A stretch of DNA of 64,000 nt from Thermomonospora catenispora (GTDB lineage: Bacteria > Actinomycetota > Actinomycetes > Streptosporangiales > Streptosporangiaceae), in contig NZ_RRYT01000005.1 of assembly GCF_006363815.1 (NCBI RefSeq), positions 62,001 to 126,000 on the forward strand. The letters are read 5' to 3'. Under the pieces are notes generated by a model. The model worked only from the letters and a program-made list of their open reading frames with translations. It had not been told where the DNA came from and did no database searches. Shown here one piece after another: positions 1-38,118 of this stretch. The stretch's first letter is position 1; each line of letters begins with the position of its first letter. The translations under genes were made by a program, and so were the position numbers.

Positions 1-848
1 CCCTCGATGTGGATGTGGAGATCCGCGACGCGGACGCGACGTTGCTGCCCGCCTTGCAGGCCTCTCCTCCCGACGCCGTGTTCCCCGTGCTGCATGGGGC
101 GATGGGTGAAGACGGAGCCATCCGGGACGTCCTCGATCTGCTCGGCATCCCCTACGTCGGAGCCGAGCCGCATGCCTGCCGCATCGCCTGGGACAAGCCC
201 ACCGCCAAGTCGGTGGTCCGCGCCGCCGGTCTGATCACCCCGGACTCGGTGACCTTGCCCAAAGAGGTCTTCCACGATCTCGGCGCCACCGCCCTGATGG
301 ACAGCGTGATCCGCCGGCTGGGCCTTCCCCTCTTCGTCAAACCGGCACGGGGCGGATCCGCTCTGGGCGTCTCCGCCGTCCATGAGCCGTCCGAGCTTCC
401 CACCGCCATGGTGGGCTGCTTCGCCTACGGCGACACCGCTCTCATCGAACGCTATGTCTCGGGGACCGAGATCGCCGTCAGCGTCATCGAGCGCGACGGT
501 ATGCCCATGGCGCTCCCGCCTGTGGAGATCGTTCCCGCCGGGGATCTGTACGACTACACCGCCCGCTACGACGCCGGCGACACCGAGTTCATCACTCCCG
601 CCCGTCTCCCCGAGGAGACCATCCGCCAAGCCACCGAGGTGGCGCTCACCGCGCATCGCGCTCTCGGCCTTCGAGACCTCTCCCGCACCGACCTGATCGT
701 CGACTCCGCCGGGCAGATCCACTTCTTGGAAGTGAACGTGGCGCCCGGCATGACCGAGACCAGTCTCTTCCCCCGTGCGCTTCAGGCGGCCGAGCTGGAG
801 CTGGGCCCCACCCTGGTGGACCTGATCCGCACCCGATGTTTCTCGTGA
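1..848 (+). CDS. ddl: D-alanine--D-alanine ligase, 5' end outside window
   Basis: ATP-grasp enzyme that joins two D-alanines for the peptidoglycan stem peptide; cytosolic. The frame is open to the window edge (first full codon at position 3), so the N-terminus is missing. Visible motifs are HGAMGEDG early in the protein (the family's HGxxGEDG), the central ATP-grasp lysine region FVKPARGGSALGVS, and the C-terminal metal/substrate segment EVNVAPGMTETSLFP. The C-terminus ends in RTRCFS with the TGA stop lying inside a parS site. It is transcribed towards parB, with about 1.2 kb of non-coding DNA between. The family call is firm; whether it is the only cellular Ddl cannot be told here. Confidence 0.9.
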   Translation, partial: LDVDVEIRDADATLLPALQASPPDAVFPVLHGAMGEDGAIRDVLDLLGIPYVGAEPHACRIAWDKPTAKSVVRAAGLITPDSVTLPKEVFHDLGATALMDSVIRRLGLPLFVKPARGGSALGVSAVHEPSELPTAMVGCFAYGDTALIERYVSGTEIAVSVIERDGMPMALPPVEIVPAGDLYDYTARYDAGDTEFITPARLPEETIRQATEVALTAHRALGLRDLSRTDLIVDSAGQIHFLEVNVAPGMTETSLFPRALQAAELELGPTLVDLIRTRCFS

Positions 849-852
849 AACA
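837..852. promoter_or_regulatory. parS: parS site 1
   Basis: The 16-mer TGTTTCTCGTGAAACA differs at one position from the palindromic parS consensus TGTTTCACGTGAAACA bound by ParB. It overlaps the ddl stop codon. Three further sites lie within 5 kb. Confidence 0.85.
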
Positions 853-2052
853 TGACCTCCGCCCGCGGCAGAGGCCTTGAGCCGAAGTCCTTCTGTGCAC
901 CGACCGGTCATGCGCCCCGAGAGAGGAGCGACGCCCGCCCGACCCGGCGGGGAGCCTGCGAAGGGCGGCCCTGTCACGCCAGGGTGCCGGAGCACATCGC
1001 CTCTGAACACCCGACCGCCTCTCACGACGGGCGGCGCGCGCAGGCCTCCCGAGGACGAGGCGACGCGGAAGAGGGCATGCGGCGACCGTGAGGCCGATGT
1101 TTCACGGGAAACATCCGGGTGCGGATCCGTGCGCTGAAGGAAGCGGACTCCACGGCGAGTGCACGGGATCGCCAGGATGCGCCCCCGGACGGCCCTGTCT
1201 CTTCGGGGGTGGACTTTGCCGCAGCAGCCGGCGGGCGGGATGAGCCGCGACGGGTGAGCGGTGAAGAGTGCCCCGGAGGCGCCGCAAGCGCCTCCCTACA
1301 GACGCCGCAGGAACCCGGAGGAGCTGCACCCGCCCCTGTACGCGGGTATCCGCCGTGCAGGGGGTTGACCCAGGTATCACGACGGGTGCGCGCGCCCAGT
1401 GGTGCGGGTACCCGTCGTGCATGACCTCCTCCTGAAGGCGGGTCACCCTCGTGCGGGTCGACCCTTCCCGCTTCACCGCCGTCCGCTCCGGCCCAGGAGA
1501 AGCCCCGGCGAGGCCTCACGCCTCCTCCACCGGCGTCCCGCTTCACCGCCGGCCCGGCGGTGAGGGCGTCGCACGCGGCGTTTCCCGATCATGCACCGCC
1601 CCGCACGGGCACCGCCGCCTCCGAACGTTCAACGGCACGGACTCGCGCGCACGGTCCTGCATGCCGAGCACACGGCCTGTCGCCGGGGGCCGGTCGACGA
1701 TGAGGGCGGCCCGCATCAGGAGAGCAGGCGTCCCCTGCCCGGGAACGAGGCGCCTCGCGGGAGATCAGACAGCCGTACCCCATGCAGGCATGCCCGCATA
1801 GCACGTGTGGGCGGGACTCATCGCCGCATGACACACCTGTGCGGGATCGGGAGGCGTCGCACAGGGGCGTGCCGGATCACCGGGTGCATGGGTCCGCCGG
1901 GTGGTCTGGAGATGATGCGGCGAACGCGAGGGGGCATCGGCGTATCCACCGCCTCCGAGTGCCCGATGGTGAACGCCGACGCACTTCTTCGGCATCGGTC
2001 GTGGCCGCTGTGCCGCGAGACGGCCTGAGCGGTCTGAGCGCCCCCCACAGAA
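853..2052. other. Long non-coding interval between ddl and parB
   Basis: About 1.2 kb without a convincing gene. Open frames on both strands lack ribosome binding sites and recognisable domains. It holds parS site 2 (1098-1113). Around 1400-1450 and 1780-1890 there are short GC-rich imperfect repeats built on GTGCGGG and CATGC words. I see no RNA gene. Confidence 0.6.
1098..1113. promoter_or_regulatory. parS: parS site 2
   Basis: TGTTTCACGGGAAACA, one mismatch from the parS consensus, in the non-coding interval downstream of parB. Together with sites 1, 3 and 4 it forms the origin-proximal ParB loading zone. Confidence 0.85.
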
Positions 2053-2055
2053 AAA

Positions 2056-2082
2056 CGCCCCGGAGACAAAGGCTCCGGGGCG
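2056..2082 (-). terminator. Rho-independent terminator of the parA-parB transcript
   Basis: A 10-bp GC-rich stem (2056-2065 with 2073-2082) with a 7-nt loop. Read leftward it is followed by CGTTTTT, so it has both hairpin and U-tract. It lies 17 bp past the parB stop. Confidence 0.85.
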
Positions 2083-2098
2083 GTGGGGAAGGGGTGAA

Positions 2099-3046
2099 TC
2101 AAAGATCGGTGCTCTGAAGGCCGGGCTCGTCAGGCGCCATGACCTTGATGATGCGGTCGAGGTCCTCGAGGGTGGCGAACTCCACGACGATCTTGCCCTT
2201 GGTACGGCCGAGGTCCACCCGGACCTTGGTCTCGTAGCGGTCAGAGAGGCGTTCGGCCAGCTCGCGGAGGGCGGGGGCCACGGGCTTCTTCCGGCCCTGG
2301 CGGCGAGGGGTCTTGGACGGCTCCTCGATCTCCCGCATCTGGATGATCTCTTCGACCGCCCGGACCGAGAGGCCTTCGGCGACGATGCGCTGAGCGAGCG
2401 CCTCCTGAGCTTCGGCGCTGTCCAGGGAGAGCAGGGCGCGAGCGTGCCCGGCGCTGAGCACACCGGCGGCGACGCGCCGCTGGACCGCGGGAGGCAGGTT
2501 GAGCAGGCGCAGGGTGTTGGTGATGTGCGGGCGGGACCGGCCGATCCGGGCGGCCAGCTGCTCATGGGTGGCGCCGAAGTCCTCCAGCAGCTGCTGGTAT
2601 GCGGCCGCCTCCTCCAGCGGGTTGAGCTGCTGGCGGTGGAGGTTCTCCATGAGGGCGTCACGGAGCAGGTCGTCGTCGGAGGTGTCCCGGATGATCGCCG
2701 GAATGGTCTCCAGCCCGGCCTGCTGGGAGGCCCGCCAGCGGCGCTCCCCCATGATCAGCTCGTACTGGTCGGGACCGGTCCGCCGCACCACCACGGGCTG
2801 CAGCAGGCCGACGATCTTGATGGACTCGGCCAGCTCCTGAAGCGCCTCCTCGTCGAAGTGCTGACGAGGCTGCCGGGGGTTGGGGGTGATCGAGCTCAGC
2901 GGCAGCTCGGCGAAATGCGCTCCGGCCACCGGCTCCAGGTCCGGGGCCGAGCCGTCTCGATTGTTCGCACCGCCCGTTCCTGGAGCGGGCCCCGTGGGAA
3001 TGAGGGCACCCAGTCCCCTGCCCAGACCGCGCCGCTGCTGTGTCAC
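2099..3046 (-). CDS. parB: Chromosome partitioning protein ParB
   Basis: CTP-dependent DNA clamp that loads at parS, spreads, and is moved by ParA to segregate origins. The 315 residues are typical of the family. A basic N-terminal ParA-contact tail ([12 protein letters not shown], about residues 6-17) is followed by the CTP-binding ParB/Srx domain (about 46-125) with the box GERRWRA at 100-106. A helix-turn-helix (about 156-182, [19 protein letters not shown]) recognises parS. The C-terminal dimerisation segment is separated by a short [11 protein letters not shown] linker. The GTG start is preceded by a GAGGTGA ribosome site. It lies 40 bp downstream of parA, in one operon, and ends at a strong terminator. 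Confidence 0.97.
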
Positions 3047-3086
3047 CTCGTCACCTCACCTGGCGCAATGCTGTCACTGGTCGTCA

Positions 3087-6000
3087 TCAGGCCCTTCCCG
3101 CGCCACGGTGGGCCATCTCGCACGCGGCCTCGCTGTAGGCGAGCGCGCCGCTGGAACCCGGATCGTAGGTCATCACCGACTGTCCGTAGCTCGGCGCCTC
3201 CGACACCCGCACGCTCCGGGGGATCACCGTCTTGAGCACGATGTCACCGAAGTGCCCGCGGACCTCGTCGGCGACCTGGGCGGCCAGCCGAGTCCGGGCA
3301 TCGTACATGGTCAGCAGGATGGTGGAGACCTCGAGCTGGGGGTTGAGGTGCGACTTCACCAGATCGACGGTGCGCAGCAGCTGCCCGAGCCCTTCCAGCG
3401 CGTAGTACTCGCACTGGATCGGGATCAGCAGTTCCTCCGCACCGACGAGCGCGTTCACCGTCAGCAGCCCCAGTGAGGGCGGACAGTCGATGAGAACGTA
3501 GTCGAACTGCTCCTTGTCATAGCGGTCCAGCGCCCGGCGCAGCCGGGACTCCCGGGCCACCTTGGAGACGAGTTCGATCTCCGCCCCCGCCAGATTGAGG
3601 GTCGCAGGGGCGCAGTAGAGGTTGGGAAGCTCTGGAGCCGATACGACGATCTCGGCCAGGGGCCGATCCTCGATCAGCACCTCGTAGATGGACGGGATGT
3701 CGGCGTGGTGGTCGACTCCCAGCGCGGTGGACGCATTGCCCTGAGGATCGAGGTCGATCACCAGCACCTTCAGCCCGTGCATGGCCAGAGAGGCCGCCAG
3801 ATTGACCGAGGTGGTGGTCTTGCCGACGCCGCCTTTCTGGTTGGCGATGGTGATCACCCGGCAGGTCGGCGGCTTGGGCCACTCCTGCTGTCCGGACGTG
3901 GACTGCACGGCGGCCCCCGCCCGCCCGGTGCCTTGGGCGGATCCGCTTGCCGGAGCGGGCGACGATGTTTCCCGTGAAACAGTGGCTTTCTGCAGTGCTT
4001 CGCGCACCAACTCCGATTCCCCCTGGGTGGATGCCCGACCGGCCAGAGGCGGGGGACCGTCGGCACTCCCTCCGCTGGTCGGCACATAACCGGTCGCCGC
4101 CGTTCCGGAGGTGGTGCCCCACGCGGCATGTCCGGACGGCGGCTTGTTCCGCTTGGCCGTGCCGGATGCGTTCTCACTCCCCGGTCTGCTCTGGGCAGCG
4201 GACTGCGTCGGCTTCGTCATCTCCTCCGGCGCGTCTGCAGACCCGCCGGGCACCGCATTCGTCGCTGAACCATCCGTCATAGGGCCCGACCCACCATCCG
4301 ACGTACCACTCGTTCCGGTGGGAACCGTACCGGACCCGCCCACCGGCATTCGCTCGACCGTCTCCCCCACCGGTCGCCCACCGACCGTACCGGTGAAGGG
4401 AGCCGCCGCCCCCACACCGCCGGACACGATGGGAGGGGGCAAGGGAGCCGATCTGTGCGGAGATGTGTTCTCGTCGCCCCCGGCTGCCCCCGATCCGGTC
4501 GGGGAGCGGGGGCCCGGTGGTCCCTTGCCCTTCGCCGCTCTCGAGTCGGGTGGTCCGAGAGCGGGCGGGAAACCGCCGGGCGGCGCCCCGCCCGAGAAGC
4601 GTCCGGAGAGGACGCCGCCCGGTCCGGAACGGAACGGAGTAGGAGAAGCATCCCACGAGCGGCCTTCTCCGCCGGGCCTTGTCCCGGGCGAGTCGCCCAT
4701 TCCTTCGGCATCACCGGGAGGCCGAGCCGCCTTCTCCGGCGGGCCGGTCTCGCTCCGGGCGGCAGAGGCTCTGTGCGGGAAGGCCGTGCCCGGTCTCAGA
4801 AACGCTCCGCCGACAGGGGAATCCTCCGCCTCCGCCGGGGCCGCTCGTGCGCTCGATGACCCGACATGCGGCATCGGCGGAGAGGAGCCATCGCGAGCAG
4901 GCGCGCTCTGGGCCGCATCCGGCCGGTCCTTGCGGACGTGCGGCAGGGTCGGGCTCATGCTCGAGGAGCCGGAGGGCGGCGCGGGCAGAGGCGCCATGGG
5001 CGGCTGTTCCTCGGCCCGTCCCGGCGCACCGCTGTGCTTGGAATCAACGGCGGCGGAGCCGGTGTTCCCCGTCCCTCCCGACGAGGGCCCGGTCATGGCG
5101 CCGGAAGGGCCGATCGGCCAGGCGGTGGGAATCCCCGATCGTTCCGGCCACGGCGGCGGGTATGCCGAGGCGCCGCCCTGCGACGGACGAGAAGCGCCCG
5201 AAGCCGCGCTCGTCTCCGCCGCCGGGGAGCTCACCCCGGTGGCATGAGCTTCATCCGGCCGTCCGGATGAGGGAGCGGACGGCGCATCCGATCGAGCCGC
5301 CGGAAAGGCGGCGGGGCCCACGCCGGAAGAACCCAGGCGGTGAGGGCCCTCCGACCCGCTGGGCGAGGGAGTTGCTTCGCCCGCCACGGCAGGAGGCGAT
5401 GTTTCCCGTGAAACATCCTCCCGCCCCTGCGCCGGCGGGAAGGCGGCGGAGCTCAGGCCGGCAGGACTCGGCGACGCTGCACCACGAGAAGGCGTGGACC
5501 AAGGAGGGGCGCTCGCAGACGGGCCGGCGGGCGCATCCGAGCGGTCGCCCGCGGCCGGCGTGAAGCCAAGCCCGGAGCCGGCCGAGCTCGCACCGGTGGA
5601 TCCCGACGGCATGGCCGGCCGGTCCGGGGGAGAGAAACGAGCGTCCCCCGTCCCCTCCGGCGAGGGAGAGGACGTCTTCTCGGCCGGCTCGGCCGGGTGG
5701 TCGGCTCCCGAAGGGGAGGAGGCGGAGGCCGTTCCAGCCGTTCCCTGCGGAAAAGCCGCATCCGGCCGCACAGGGGAAGGAGCGGACGGCGCGCCTGCCG
5801 GATCGGCCGGCGCAGCCGGAGCAGGGCCGGCGTCGACCGGCCTTCGAGGCCGAGGGACCTCCGGAGAGCCGGTCGGCTCGGCGGGCTGAACGGCGGCGCG
5901 GTCGTCCAGCGGCCCCTGAGAAGGAAGACCGCCCGGTCGAGCGGGCGGAGGAACGGCCGGTGCGCCCGACCGTGCCGGAGATGACGCGGCCGAGGGCGGA

Positions 6001-6464
6001 GCATCGTCCAGCGGGTAGACCCGTACGTCGTCCACCGGGTAGACCCGTATGTCGACCGGTGCCGGCAACGGCGATGCGGCCGATGAAGGCGCGGCGCCCG
6101 AGGCGGCCGGCCCTTGAGACGCCGCCGAGGAGGACGTCGAGGAGGGGCGAGCACCGACCGGCGCTTCCGGGCGGTCGGTGGCGGAAGACGGAGCGGACGG
6201 TGCAGGGGCCGGGCCGGTGGAGGCGGCGGAAGGGTGCACGGACGCCCCCGGCGGCGAAGAGACGGCCACGGCCGACGGCGCACCGGCGAGGATCGTGGAT
6301 CGGGCACCGGACGGGTCGGCGGCGGAGCCGGTGACCGGGGCGGCAGGGGGACGGGGGGCCGAGCAGGTCGTCAGGTCGTCGTGTCGCCCGCCCGGTCCTT
6401 GAGGGTCGTGCTGCGCCGCGTCACCGGCCTGGCCCGGCCGGCCCGGTCCTGGTGCCGTCGTCAT
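3087..6464 (-). CDS. parA: ParA ATPase with very long disordered N-terminal extension
   Basis: Walker-type ATPase that forms the nucleoid gradient pulling ParB-parS. The catalytic part is only residues about 866-1125: deviant Walker A KGGVGKTTT (near 877), switch DLDPQGNAST, and Walker B region VLIDCPPSLG. That 260-residue domain is the usual size of a whole ParA. Residues 1-865 are rich in Pro, Ser, Ala and Gly and have no recognisable domain. The start is chosen because the ATG overlaps the rsmG stop as ATGA (6461-6464), and sampled codons keep high GC at the third position. The gene contains two in-frame parS sites, each encoding VSRET. An internal TTG or GTG start at 4010/4007 would give a normal 306-307-residue ParA and cannot be excluded. 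Confidence 0.85.
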   Translation of the reverse strand: MTTAPGPGRPGQAGDAAQHDPQGPGGRHDDLTTCSAPRPPAAPVTGSAADPSGARSTILAGAPSAVAVSSPPGASVHPSAASTGPAPAPSAPSSATDRPEAPVGARPSSTSSSAASQGPAASGAAPSSAASPLPAPVDIRVYPVDDVRVYPLDDAPPSAASSPARSGAPAVPPPARPGGLPSQGPLDDRAAVQPAEPTGSPEVPRPRRPVDAGPAPAAPADPAGAPSAPSPVRPDAAFPQGTAGTASASSPSGADHPAEPAEKTSSPSPEGTGDARFSPPDRPAMPSGSTGASSAGSGLGFTPAAGDRSDAPAGPSASAPPWSTPSRGAASPSPAGLSSAAFPPAQGREDVSRETSPPAVAGEATPSPSGSEGPHRLGSSGVGPAAFPAARSDAPSAPSSGRPDEAHATGVSSPAAETSAASGASRPSQGGASAYPPPWPERSGIPTAWPIGPSGAMTGPSSGGTGNTGSAAVDSKHSGAPGRAEEQPPMAPLPAPPSGSSSMSPTLPHVRKDRPDAAQSAPARDGSSPPMPHVGSSSARAAPAEAEDSPVGGAFLRPGTAFPHRASAARSETGPPEKAARPPGDAEGMGDSPGTRPGGEGRSWDASPTPFRSGPGGVLSGRFSGGAPPGGFPPALGPPDSRAAKGKGPPGPRSPTGSGAAGGDENTSPHRSAPLPPPIVSGGVGAAAPFTGTVGGRPVGETVERMPVGGSGTVPTGTSGTSDGGSGPMTDGSATNAVPGGSADAPEEMTKPTQSAAQSRPGSENASGTAKRNKPPSGHAAWGTTSGTAATGYVPTSGGSADGPPPLAGRASTQGESELVREALQKATVSRETSSPAPASGSAQGTGRAGAAVQSTSGQQEWPKPPTCRVITIANQKGGVGKTTTSVNLAASLAMHGLKVLVIDLDPQGNASTALGVDHHADIPSIYEVLIEDRPLAEIVVSAPELPNLYCAPATLNLAGAEIELVSKVARESRLRRALDRYDKEQFDYVLIDCPPSLGLLTVNALVGAEELLIPIQCEYYALEGLGQLLRTVDLVKSHLNPQLEVSTILLTMYDARTRLAAQVADEVRGHFGDIVLKTVIPRSVRVSEAPSYGQSVMTYDPGSSGALAYSEAACEMAHRGAGRA
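3966..3981. promoter_or_regulatory. parS: parS site 3, inside parA
   Basis: TGTTTCCCGTGAAACA, one mismatch from consensus, within the parA reading frame just before the ATPase domain. On the coding strand it encodes the pentapeptide VSRET. Confidence 0.85.
5400..5415. promoter_or_regulatory. parS: parS site 4, inside parA
   Basis: TGTTTCCCGTGAAACA, identical to site 3 and 1.43 kb from it, within the part of parA encoding the disordered extension. It also encodes VSRET. Confidence 0.85.
6005..6052 (-). repeat. Tandem 24-bp repeat in the parA extension
   Basis: Two adjacent 24-nt units (6005-6028 and 6029-6052) differing at two positions. In the ParA frame they encode RVYPVDD and RVYPLDD, the only non-low-complexity motif in the extension. 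Confidence 0.75.
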
Positions 6465-7174
6465 GCGGACCTCTTCCTCGACTTCTTCGCGCGGCGCGGC
6501 GGCGTCCGGGCGGCGACCACGCGAACGATCGTCGTCGGCGGCTCGACCCTACCCTGCCCCAGCTTGAGCAGCTCGGTGGTGCGAACCCCGAAACGCTTGA
6601 GCACCGGGGCGGCCTCGGCAAGCTCTTGACCGGCACGTTCGCCCTTCAGCGCGAGCAGCTCCCCGCCGGGGCGCAGCAGCGGAAGCGCCCAACCGATCAG
6701 CCGGTCCAGCGGAGCCACCGCACGAGCGGTGACGACGTCGGCCTGGTAGTCCCCCGCCACCTCTTCGGCCCGAGCGCGCCGCACCTCGACGTTCGCCAGC
6801 TCCAGCATGGCGACGGCCTCGTTCAGGAACGTGGTCCGGCGCAGCAGCGGTTCCAGCAGCGTGATGGACAGGTCGGGCCGGACGATGGCGAGCACCAGCC
6901 CGGGCAGCCCGGCACCGGAACCGATGTCGATCACGGTCGCCTTCTCCGGCACCACATCGGACACCACTGCACAGTTGATCAGGTGCCGTTCCCAGAGCCG
7001 GTCGGCCTCCCGTGGGCCGATCAGGCCTCGCACAACTCCCGCATCGGCGAGAAACTCCGCATAACGTTCGGCCAGCGGCAGTGCGTCGCCGAAGATCTCC
7101 CGTGCCGCGTCCGGTGCCGAGCTTGGGTTCCTCACCGTACGAATCGTTCCATAAACAGCAGCGGACGTGCACAC
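6461..7174 (-). CDS. rsmG: 16S rRNA (guanine527-N7)-methyltransferase RsmG
   Basis: SAM-dependent enzyme that methylates N7 of G527 in 16S rRNA (GidB); its loss gives low-level streptomycin resistance in other bacteria. The SAM-binding loop DIGSGAGLPG is at residues 83-92 of the 237-residue frame and the second motif TLLEPLLRRTTFL follows. The C-terminus is basic (RRAKKSRKRSA). The start is uncertain: GTG at 7174 gives 237 residues, while GTG at 7135 (VRNPSSAP) gives 224, closer to most RsmG proteins; neither has a strong ribosome site. The stop overlaps the parA start as ATGA, indicating translational coupling of RsmG to ParA. Confidence 0.93.
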   Translation of the reverse strand: MCTSAAVYGTIRTVRNPSSAPDAAREIFGDALPLAERYAEFLADAGVVRGLIGPREADRLWERHLINCAVVSDVVPEKATVIDIGSGAGLPGLVLAIVRPDLSITLLEPLLRRTTFLNEAVAMLELANVEVRRARAEEVAGDYQADVVTARAVAPLDRLIGWALPLLRPGGELLALKGERAGQELAEAAPVLKRFGVRTTELLKLGQGRVEPPTTIVRVVAARTPPRRAKKSRKRSA

Positions 7175-7754
7175 AGGCCGCCCGCTGTGGATGACCGTCC
7201 CACGGCTTCACGCAGCCGCTTCGGCGGGAAGCGCTCACCGACGCTCATCCCTGCCGACGCGACCCGGCACGAGGAGCCCTTCTCCGCGCCCGCTCAGGTG
7301 AGCGACGAAGAACAGAGGACACCGCGGGCGTCTCACGGGCACCGCCCTGGGCCGCACCGATGGGGCTTCGCCCTGCCGGGCGACCGGCGGCGCCGGCGCA
7401 TCGGCGCCCTCCCGGGGGGCCGCCGGCGCCCCCCCACCGCGCTCGGCGCGCCTTCGCAACGAACCGTCTTCCCGGCGAACCGCTCAGGTCTCGCGCCCGG
7501 GCGCCGCAAGCGCACATCGCCGTATCCGGGGGGGCGATGCGCCGCTCACCCCGCCGGGGCGTCGGCCTCGTCCGGCCGCGCGATCACAGACGGTCGCTCA
7601 TCGGCCCGCCCCGCCCCGCGGTCCGCCGTCCCCCGCCACGGCCGGATCGAAGCCCCGCGGTCCCGGACGGAGCGGCGGCCCGAACACGCCGAACGCCGGG
7701 CGATGCGGCGGGCCCGGCGTTCGTGAGGCGTCGATCGTCAGGAGGGGTCGGTCA
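7175..7754. other. Intergenic region between khpB and rsmG
   Basis: About 580 bp, very GC-rich. Open frames here are out-of-frame GC artefacts with no domains or ribosome sites. It presumably carries the promoter of the rsmG-parA-parB transcript near 7140-7250. No clear hairpin or repeat was seen. Confidence 0.5.
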
Positions 7755-10185: not shown

Positions 10186-10807
10186 TCGAGACTCCAGTGT
10201 GGTGCTGCGGTCGCGTGATCCCTGCAGGCCGTGGCGCCTGAGGTGGTTGGGTTGTGCGGTCGCACTCGGCGAGCGCGTCCGGTCCCCCGCAGCGGGGGCC
10301 CGCCTGGCTCGCCCGGACCGCTCGCCCCCATCGAGGGTACTTGCCGCCCATGAGGGACAGGCGCTCCTGGTCACGGAAGGCGGGCACGCGTGATCGCCGC
10401 CGATACGACTCGACCGTAGAACGGTACGCCCCGTCCGCCGCCGGGTCAAACCGATGCGGTCCCGGGGGCGGGCCGTCTACACTGCGGGGGACGGCGTGCG
10501 ACGTTCGCACGGTGCCCGTACGGCTCTCGCATGGATCGGGCGGTTGATGTTGCGGCCACCCGTCGGCACCCACTACCGTCACCGGGCGAGCTCGGTTCCA
10601 GTCCGCCGCACGAGCCGCCACGCGCACCGGCGCCTCCAGGAATCTCCCCTCCGGACCCCACTCGCCAGCAGAGTTTTACACAGCCTCCTGTGCGGTTTTG
10701 CACAGGGTGTGGACAACTCTGTGGATGACGCGTGAGAGAGTAAGTCCCCTGCGATAGGAGTCCAGATTTGGGACTCTGGTTACGGCGAATGGGGAGGGAT
10801 GTGGCGT
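10186..10807. promoter_or_regulatory. rpmH-dnaA divergent regulatory region
   Basis: About 620 bp without a gene, expected to hold the rpmH and dnaA promoters. Near its right end are two DnaA-box-like sites, TGTGGACAA (10708-10716, the complement of TTGTCCACA) and TGTGGATGA (10720-10728), which suit DnaA autoregulation. A 7-bp inverted repeat (CCTGTGC ... GCACAGG, 10687-10706) lies just upstream. The dnaA ribosome site GGGAGGG is at about 10792-10798. Confidence 0.65.
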
Positions 10808-12796
10808 ATGGACGGTCGTGACCTCGCGTCGGTGTGGGCCCGTACGCTGGCCGCTCTCTCCGAGGGGGACCTGCCGCCCAGTTACCGGGCCTGGCTGCCT
10901 CTGGTGCGCCCGCTTGCGCTGGTAGAAGGCACCGCCCTGCTGGCCGCCCCCAACGAGTTCGCCAAGGACGCGCTGGAGACCCGGCTGCGCGGCCTGATCA
11001 CTCAGGCGCTGTCCAAGGAGCTCGGCCGGGAGATCTTCGTGGCGGTCACCGTCCAGCCCGAGCCGCCCCAGCCGCCGGCCGAGCAGCAGTCCGCCGAGCG
11101 CCGGCCGGAGCCGCCGGAGGGGGCCTACGGAGGGCAGTCCCGGCCGGAAGTTATCCACAGCTCCGGCCGCCCCGGTGGATATCCCGAGGACTCCTATCCC
11201 CAAGGGGGCCAGGGCTACCCGTGGAGCCGTGAGCAGCCCCCCGGCTATGAGGGCGGCGGGTACGACGCCTCCCACCCCACGGGCCGGCCCCCCGCCTACG
11301 CCGCTCAGGGACGGCATGCGGCGCCGCCCGTCCACCATGACGACGACCGCGGCCGGGACGACGCGCCGCCGTGGGGCCGGGCGCCTCATCTCGCCGACCG
11401 GCCGTCGGGCGCGCCGCATTATGAGGACCGCTACGACGATGCGCAGCGTCCCGGCGCCGAGCCGCCGCACGCCGCCCGGGACCACGGCCGGCCCTACGAC
11501 GACGCCGAGCACCGGATGTCCGCCGGCGGGCGGCACCGCGCCGACGACGCGCCGCCCGGGCAGGGTCCGCAGCAGTACGAGGAGGGGTACCCCCGCGCCG
11601 CCTCGCCCGGCCCCTACGGGCCGGGACCGGGCGACGGCCGCGACCAGGGTCCCCGGCACGGGGAGGGCCGCGGCGAGCGGCCGGGGGACGGCGATGCCGA
11701 ACAGCCGTCGTGGCAGGCGCGTCGCCCCGCGGGCGAGCAGCCCAAGCCCGGGTCCGAGCACGCCCGGCTGAACCCCAAGTACACGTTCGAGACGTTCGTC
11801 ATCGGGTCCTCCAACCGGTTCGCCCACGCCGCCGCCGTCGCGGTGGCCGAGCAGCCGGCCAAGGCCTACAACCCGCTGTTCATCTACGGGGACTCCGGGC
11901 TGGGCAAGACGCACCTGCTGCACGCGATCGGCCACTACGCGCAGAGCCTGTTCAGCGGGGCGCGGGTGCGTTATGTGAGCTCGGAGGAGTTCACCAACGA
12001 CTTCATCAACGCCATCCGCGACGGCAAGGCCGACGGGTTCCGCCGCCGCTACCGGGACATCGACATCCTCCTGGTCGACGACATCCAGTTCCTGGAGGGC
12101 AAGGAGCAGACCCAGGAGGAGTTCTTCCACACCTTCAACACCCTGCACAACGCCAGCAAGCAGATCGTGATCTCCAGCGACCGGCCGCCCAAGGACCTGG
12201 TGACGCTGGAGGACCGGCTGCGCAACCGGTTCGAGTGGGGCCTGACCACCGACGTGCAGCCGCCGGAGCTGGAGACCCGGATCGCGATCCTGCAGAAGAA
12301 GGCCCGCCAGGAGGGTCTGGCGGTGCCGCCGGACGTGGTGGAGTTCATCGCCTCGCAGATCGCCACCAACATCCGTGAGCTGGAGGGGGCGCTGATCAGG
12401 GTCACCGCCTACGCCAGCCTCAACCGGCAGTCGGTGGACATGCGGGTGGCCGAGACGGTGCTCAAGGACCTGATCCCCAACGACACCGGTCCGGAGATCA
12501 CCGCGAGCCTGATCATGGCGCAGACGGTGGAGTACTTCGGCACCACCATCGAGGACCTGTGCGGCCCCTCCCGGTCCCGGATGCTGGTGACCGCCCGGCA
12601 GATCGCCATGTACCTGTGCCGGGAGCTGACCGACCTGTCGCTGCCCAAGATCGGCGCGCAGTTCGGCGGACGCGATCACACCACCGTCATGCACGCCGAA
12701 CGCAAGATCCGTTCGCTGATGGCCGAGCGCCGCGCCATCTACAACCAGGTCACCGAGCTCACCGGACGCATCAAGAACCAGGCCCGCAAGCGCTGA
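10808..12796 (+). CDS. dnaA: Chromosomal replication initiator DnaA
   Basis: AAA+ protein that binds DnaA boxes and melts oriC. The start at 10808 ([10 protein letters not shown]) is preferred over ATG 10799, which sits directly on the GGGAGGG ribosome site. Domain I (about 1-80) contacts the helicase machinery. Domain II (about 80-320) is a very long Pro/Gly/Asp/Arg-rich linker, as in mycelial actinomycetes. Domain III carries Walker [10 protein letters not shown] (near 360) and Walker [10 protein letters not shown]. Domain IV ends with the DNA-binding signature [12 protein letters not shown] (about 619-630). At 662 residues it is at the long end of the family because of domain II. A perfect DnaA box lies inside the coding sequence. 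Confidence 0.98.
11151..11159 (+). promoter_or_regulatory. Perfect DnaA box inside dnaA
   Basis: TTATCCACA, an exact consensus DnaA box, in the part of dnaA encoding the linker domain. It is one of few perfect boxes in the window. Confidence 0.6.
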
Positions 12797-38102: not shown

Positions 38103-38118
38103 GGTTCCACGTGGAACA
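38103..38118. promoter_or_regulatory. parS: Distant parS-like site
   Basis: GGTTCCACGTGGAACA; the central 14 bp GTTCCACGTGGAAC form a perfect palindrome. It matches the parS form TGTTCCACGTGGAACA at 15 of 16 positions and lies just after the EamA stop, 33 kb from the parAB cluster across oriC. Confidence 0.65.

Follow-up and report, generated by a model that had tools for sequence, protein, structure and literature searches.

Why should ParA, normally taken as an ATPase of ~250–300 residues, lie at the very end of an open frame of 1125 codons? The question is raised by a stretch of Thermomonospora catenispora DNA 64,000 nucleotides long (contig NZ_RRYT01000005.1, positions 62,001–126,000; hereafter the window), in which parA fills a single minus-strand frame at 3087..6464 (1125 aa), from an ATG at 6464 to a stop at 3089–3087. 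The ATPase accounts for the final ~259 residues and is preceded by an extension of 866. The original prediction had placed ParA only at the end of such a frame and had the first ATG overlap the stop of the upstream gene rsmG as ATGA; both statements hold, the ATG lying at 6464 and rsmG ending at 6461. We propose, with an overall confidence of about 0.6, that this gene yields a long ParA carrying a disordered arm and also a short ParA begun inside the frame. The extension has the look of a genuine arm that is translated and specific to its lineage, and we consider it very probable that the long form is made from the ATG overlapping the rsmG stop.

The enzyme itself is, by its sequence and gene neighborhood, a chromosomal member of the ParA/Soj family (ParABS). 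It has a deviant Walker A P-loop (KGGVGKTT falls within residues 875–884) and matches the ParA/MinD fold family, parB is the next gene, and parS-like sites lie nearby. The ATPase domain (3090..3866, minus strand) was delimited by profile and phmmer matches: Pfam AAA_31 matches residues 869–1046 (E 6.8e-62), CbiA matches with an E of 1.1e-27, and residues 869–1118 align as a deviant Walker ATPase with solved ParA/Soj proteins (E 2.6e-77 to 8ray_B, a ParA family protein, and 2.9e-61 to 1wcv). The solved relatives that we considered, Thermus Soj (1WCV/2BEJ/2BEK) and 8RAY among them, differ in that the seven distinct sequences found at E 1e-30 are only 255–276 residues long, align from residue 868 or 869, and have no arm. 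A known domain inside the arm was a candidate that we reject, the profile searches being empty there: at E 0.1 no Pfam match begins before residue 869, and zero NCBIfam families match residues 1–866. Plasmid type Ia ParA proteins (P1 ParA/SopA) have an N-terminal helix-turn-helix DNA-binding domain; no profile match to one was found in this arm at E 0.1, a comparison made with profiles only.

The openness of the extension is not what would be expected of chance. It contains no stop in the parA frame over 2.6 kb, as had been predicted, against 9, 5, 7, 9 and 5 stops in the remaining five frames, and none of 2000 mononucleotide or 1000 dinucleotide shuffles kept it open from end to end. By itself, the window's hypervariable middle (residues 71–657) stayed open in 17 of 1000 shuffles and that of a congener in 2 of 1000, so that the window's middle taken alone would not exclude chance openness; it is the shuffles of the whole extension, together with the relatives, that lead us to reject a frame open by chance. 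Codon bias by itself is no demonstration of coding. GC content by codon position is 0.72/0.77/0.75 in the extension and 0.69/0.43/0.88 in the core, and across 80 relatives mean third-position GC (GC3) is lower in the extension (0.79) than in the core (0.94). The GC-rich third positions first offered as a sign of coding therefore make a weak argument, and our case for coding is made on comparative evidence instead.

That evidence comes from 101 related loci, 80 of which form a clade set with core identity of at least 82% (Actinomadura/Thermomonospora-like). A start codon in frame with ParA and having a 4-nt overlap with the rsmG stop is found in 82 of the 101 (78 ATG and 4 GTG, the GTG loci all falling below 82% core identity). 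Within the clade set, 78 of 80 loci have it, and no stop interrupts the arm in any of these 78; the stops in relatives' extensions that had been named as evidence against translation are absent from them. The two exceptions are L133, which has no overlapping start, and L208 (genome G262), where the frame is broken at the beginning of the ATPase core and an intact, readable arm stands beside the broken core. Outside the overlap set, an arm does not have to start at the rsmG stop, for in 12 of 59 loci (L208 included) the open frame fails to reach back that far. A wider family survey recovered ParA in at least 333 of 341 genomes, lengths being available only among the matches listed.

How unusual is an arm of 866 residues? 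In 80 of the 82 overlap loci the extension measures 82–353 residues, and in the other two 866 and 868. All five genomes of the genus in the set analyzed have a ParA with an in-frame ATG overlapping the rsmG stop, with extensions of 866 (the window), 868 (G061), 241 (G062), 162 (G063) and 353 residues (G064). An assembly artefact was considered and is unlikely because G061, whose genome is a single contig, has a giant extension too. The original prediction of a strikingly different segregation ATPase thus stands as to a real, translated-looking arm and falls as to its being unique in kind, and the proposed comparison of parA lengths returned open arms in nearly all of the clade, most of them far shorter than the two giants. 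Judged from these sequences, the giant arm looks like an extreme expansion of an older one, since related genera carry roughly 80–350 residues with short conserved motifs. Another genus of the family has long arms as well: that of G055 (L123) is open from an ATG lying 618 codons ahead of the core and includes several GxGWP-like repeats, and that of G084 (L219) is open for about 393 codons, with five matches to a broader GxGWP-like pattern. The absence of such arms from the intervening genera, judged without a tree, leads us to infer that these grew independently.

The motifs of the arm are kept as protein. In 61 of 141 loci the parA frame contains GxGWP, as against 1 and 0 for the two other frames. 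The conserved motif GHAAWGTTSGTAATGYVP (GHA..GYVP; residues 778–795, 4080..4133 on the minus strand) is found in 68 of 82 loci as 25 peptides and 62 DNA versions, and its ratio of nonsynonymous to synonymous polymorphism (pN/pS) is 0.083 (58 clade sequences). For QGESELVREAL, nearer the core, the ratio is 0.071 (76 sequences); the core itself gives 0.178 (82), the N-terminus 0.31 (64) and a WPxP stretch ahead of the core 0.30 (80). Codons that vary while the peptide stays are the pattern of purifying selection on the motifs upstream of the core. The same conclusion comes from loci outside the overlap set. VRxAL lies upstream of the core in 23 of 59 of them, exactly as LVREAL in 17, and 15 of the 23 encode the valine by GTA; because GTA cannot serve as a start, the motif there must be translated from a start farther upstream. 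When the arm motifs were sought in other proteins of the five congeners, only chance-level matches appeared besides parA, the best having E values of 0.010 (GHA/LVREAL segment) and 0.0175 (N-terminus). In four loci from other genera of the family (L235, L241, L251 and L257), the ParA arm bears a different N-terminal motif, TEEVNSFVP.

QGESELVREAL also contains what appears to be a second start. At 4005..4025 (minus strand), a putative Shine-Dalgarno sequence within CAG GGG GAA (4025–4017) precedes a GTG (4007–4005), the whole being read Q-GES-E-L-V-REAL; in the clade the codons ahead of the GTG are mostly CAG GGG GAG. The glycine of QGES is GGG in 71 of 73 sequences and the valine GTG in all 73, where GGG makes up 24% of glycine codons and GTG 39% of valine codons in these genes. 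Shine-Dalgarno strength, calculated as pairing energy with the anti-Shine-Dalgarno sequence, has the same median, –9.4 kcal/mol, for the overlapping start in 82 loci and for the internal GTG in 77, and 76 of these 77 reach –7 or stronger. The mean at 1596 other in-frame start-like codons is –2.7 kcal/mol, and 1% of these reach –9.4. Synonymous constraint, scored in 309 windows, is highest over codons 1–8 (z 3.5), with z 2.7 at parS and z 2.6 at the internal start. The gene thus has an apparent second in-frame start with a Shine-Dalgarno sequence conserved beyond what coding would need, as expected of a dual-start gene. This second start seems confined to the overlap set: among the 23 VRxAL loci outside it (median –2.9 kcal/mol), only three have one (L135, L222 and L237), which is no more than the background there, where 13.7% of codons reach –7 or stronger.

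Two ParA isoforms are therefore likely on this evidence, the short one, of 306 residues, probably being made from GTG 4007 with its own Shine-Dalgarno sequence. Could it be the only one? Were ParA made solely from GTG 4007, the upstream frame would be untranslated leader DNA; such a proposal draws on the strong, conserved start signal just described and on the weaker codon bias of the extension. It must also explain an overlapping in-frame start in nearly every clade locus, the low pN/pS of GHA..GYVP, the GTA codon at the homologous position outside the overlap set, and the near confinement of GxGWP to the parA frame, and we find it very hard to credit. Translation from about 4007/4010 (GTG and the TTG before it, within E-L-V-REAL) had been named in advance as the observation that, if exclusive, would undo the extension: the GTG and its Shine-Dalgarno sequence do prove to be conserved, and the long form is not excluded thereby.

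The arm also carries candidate centromere sites. If every site with no more than one mismatch to GTTTCACGTGAAAC is counted as parS-like, the draft genome (5.35 Mb) has five, four in the window and one at C54:56002-56015. All five lie within ~12 kb, two of them inside parA. The four window sites (838–5414) each have one mismatch to the consensus: two lie downstream of parAB, at 838..851 (GTTTCTCGTGAAAC) and 1099..1112 (GTTTCACGGGAAAC), and two lie inside the extension. Site 1 (3967..3980) is read V829-S-R-E-T, and many relatives have a similar site about 65–115 nt upstream of the core; site 2 (5401..5414; GTTTCACGGGAAAC on the minus strand) is read V351-S-R-E-T. The congener's giant arm has one such site. 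The context of site 2 shares a 27-nt match with that of site 1 and a 42-nt match with that of the congener's site, which suggests that site 2 arose by in-frame duplication. In three of the four loci with the TEEVNSFVP motif there are several V-S-R-E-T copies, as if parS had multiplied in frame.

Between rsmG and the ParA core we counted 55 parS-like sites in 52 of the 101 loci, all in one phase and read as V-S-R-E-T or a near variant. In a wider set of 127 loci, sites in the open frame upstream of the core divide among phases 0, 1 and 2 as 67, 11 and 0, and sites beyond the open frame as 8, 8 and 14. Phase 2 puts a TGA in frame for the canonical site and is excluded by openness; phase 1 is not so excluded. 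Eight of the 11 phase-1 sites are from Streptomyces, 397–484 nt upstream, and those of L049, L055 and L060 (other actinobacteria), 130–136 nt upstream, contradict a universal phase. The arginine codon at the parS position is CAT (His) in 37 of 73 clade sequences, giving GTTTCACATGAAAC at that position, either a variant of the site or a decayed one (e.g., L198 and L208, A-K-V-S-H-E-T).

These sites raise the possibility that the stretch is kept chiefly as DNA, carrying parS and spacing it from rsmG, with coding as a by-product. The location of two of the genome's five sites in the extension and the synonymous constraint at the parS codons are in keeping with this idea. A role as DNA alone would not require all 55 gap sites to share one reading phase, nor would it conserve, as protein, motifs distant from parS, and 49 of the 101 loci have no pattern-matching site in the rsmG–core gap; we consider this explanation quite improbable.

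The next question is how the arm became so long. The two giants share the ends of their extensions. Over the last 627 nt (3867..4493, minus strand), the window and congener L119 align gap-free at 84% identity; over the first ~205 nt they align with gaps at 73%, a region covering the N-terminal ~40 residues (6345..6464, minus strand) that are homologous to the GLGWP-type N-terminus of the family. The ~1770 nt between these ends have only short pieces in common; here lies the hypervariable low-complexity linker (about residues 41–657; 4494..6344, minus strand), which is unalignable with the congener save for short pieces, mostly in frame. Local matching of the two extensions at E 1 gave 35 plus-strand matches (25 in frame) and 18 minus-strand matches, the latter indicating the noise level.

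This pattern is compatible with a translated arm whose growth to 866 residues was a near-neutral expansion of low-complexity sequence, driven by slippage of repeats in a genome rich in GC, the ancestral short motifs alone being of consequence. The middle cannot be aligned between close species, that of the congener contains repeats offset by about 102 nt (34 codons), the ratio of nonsynonymous to synonymous substitution rates (dN/dS) between the giants reaches 0.57 beside it, where the C-terminal part of the extension can be aligned, as compared with 0.06 in the core, and lengths vary from 162 to 868 within one genus. Near-neutral growth fits less well with two species keeping ~2.6 kb open at nearly equal length, or with the open arm of up to 618 residues and its GxGWP-like repeats in another genus. 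We regard it as a serious contender, with odds somewhat short of even.

The other possibility is that length contributes to function. In the long form, a disordered arm bearing the GLGWP-type, GHAxWG..SGTA..GYVP and QGESELVREAL..VSRET motifs would be joined to the ATPase through a linker, which in most relatives stays below ~350 residues and in T. catenispora and one congener would have expanded past 860, a direction of growth that we infer. By analogy with mycobacterial ParA and DivIVA, the arm motifs may bind a partner outside the nucleoid, and linker length would set the reach of the ATPase during its cycle on DNA and with ParB; the usual gradient task would fall to the short form. We put forward this tether role tentatively, at odds slightly below those of near-neutral linker growth on top of a functional short arm. 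The two can both be partly true.

The nearest precedents are analogies. Mycobacterial and Corynebacterium ParA proteins have an N-terminal extension, described as 20–25 residues long, and in M. smegmatis the N-terminal region is reported to be responsible for DivIVA binding (PMC9298525); this is likewise an actinobacterial N-terminal arm, though one of 20–25 rather than 866 residues. In Streptomyces coelicolor, ParA is recruited to hyphal tips by the polarity protein Scy, and the mapped contact residue, E250, is in the C-terminal domain and not in an N-terminal arm (PMC3718342). In another protein, mycobacterial FtsK, a conserved segregation machine appears to be similarly tuned by a lineage-specific, long disordered N-terminal extension; that arm is reported to be positively charged and lipid-binding (PMC13277299), unlike the arm described here, with a net charge of about –9.

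Several observations weigh against the proposal as a whole. The clade sequences are related by descent, so that the counts are not independent events. The dN/dS beside the linker is well above that of the core, and because ~620 residues in the middle are unalignable, no residue-level function can be claimed there on these data. The GLGWP motif is degenerate in the window (GPGRP, GPGGR), which argues against a binding role for it in T. catenispora. The internal Shine-Dalgarno sequence is lacking in L122, of the same genus (–2.6), and z at the internal start and at parS is modest, other N-terminal windows being equally high. As for the mycobacterial analogy, a 20-residue ParA N-terminus fused to another ParA was reportedly insufficient for DivIVA binding (PMC9298525).

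Composition bears on one further suggestion, that an arm rich in P, A, S and G makes ParA condense, whether at the hyphal tip or on the nucleoid. Proline, alanine, serine, glycine and threonine make up 70% of the extension, and its length and low complexity are what speak for condensation. The residues that usually act as stickers are aromatic or charged; with 6 W, 4 Y and 11 F in 866 residues and a near-neutral charge, the arm has few of them, and condensation seems highly improbable.

The surroundings of the gene are ordinary. On one side of parA lie rsmG (6461..7174, minus strand; 237 aa, Pfam GidB), an R3H-domain protein, a 60KD_IMP (YidC-like) protein and dnaA; on the other side is parB (2099..3046, minus strand; ParB_N, HTH_ParB and ParB_C). 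The order rsmG-parA-parB near dnaA is the usual origin-proximal one. A search for sigma-70 promoters in 3800–7300 found none, and terminator-like sites there number 1 against 1.1 expected. DnaA (10799–12796, plus strand; 665 aa) has a Pro/Gly/Asp/Arg-rich gap of ~250 residues between DnaA_N, which ends at residue 72, and Bac_DnaA, which starts at 324, and is a second case of a long low-complexity linker in an origin-region gene. Far from parAB, the window contains a perfect palindrome, GTTCCACGTGGAAC, at 38104–38117, two mismatches from parS.

The ParA enzyme and the shorter actinobacterial arms are already known, and it is as a variant that the giant arm is new; in a search of one open-access library we recognized no description of a giant or dual-start ParA. 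Here, an arm three times the size of its enzyme has motifs, an apparent second start and centromere sites within coding sequence. In a bolder version, which we consider rather doubtful, one gene would make two ParAs, a long form, coupled to rsmG translation, whose giant arm ties segregation to a scaffold at the pole, and a short form, begun internally, on the nucleoid, with the arm doubling as centromere DNA whose phase-fixed parS sites multiply by in-frame duplication. For annotators the lesson is that a parA start assigned in this group may err in either direction. The natural series of arm lengths, from 82 to 868 residues and with five lengths in one genus, offers a means of asking what holds ParA at poles or tips and whether the length of the linker matters.

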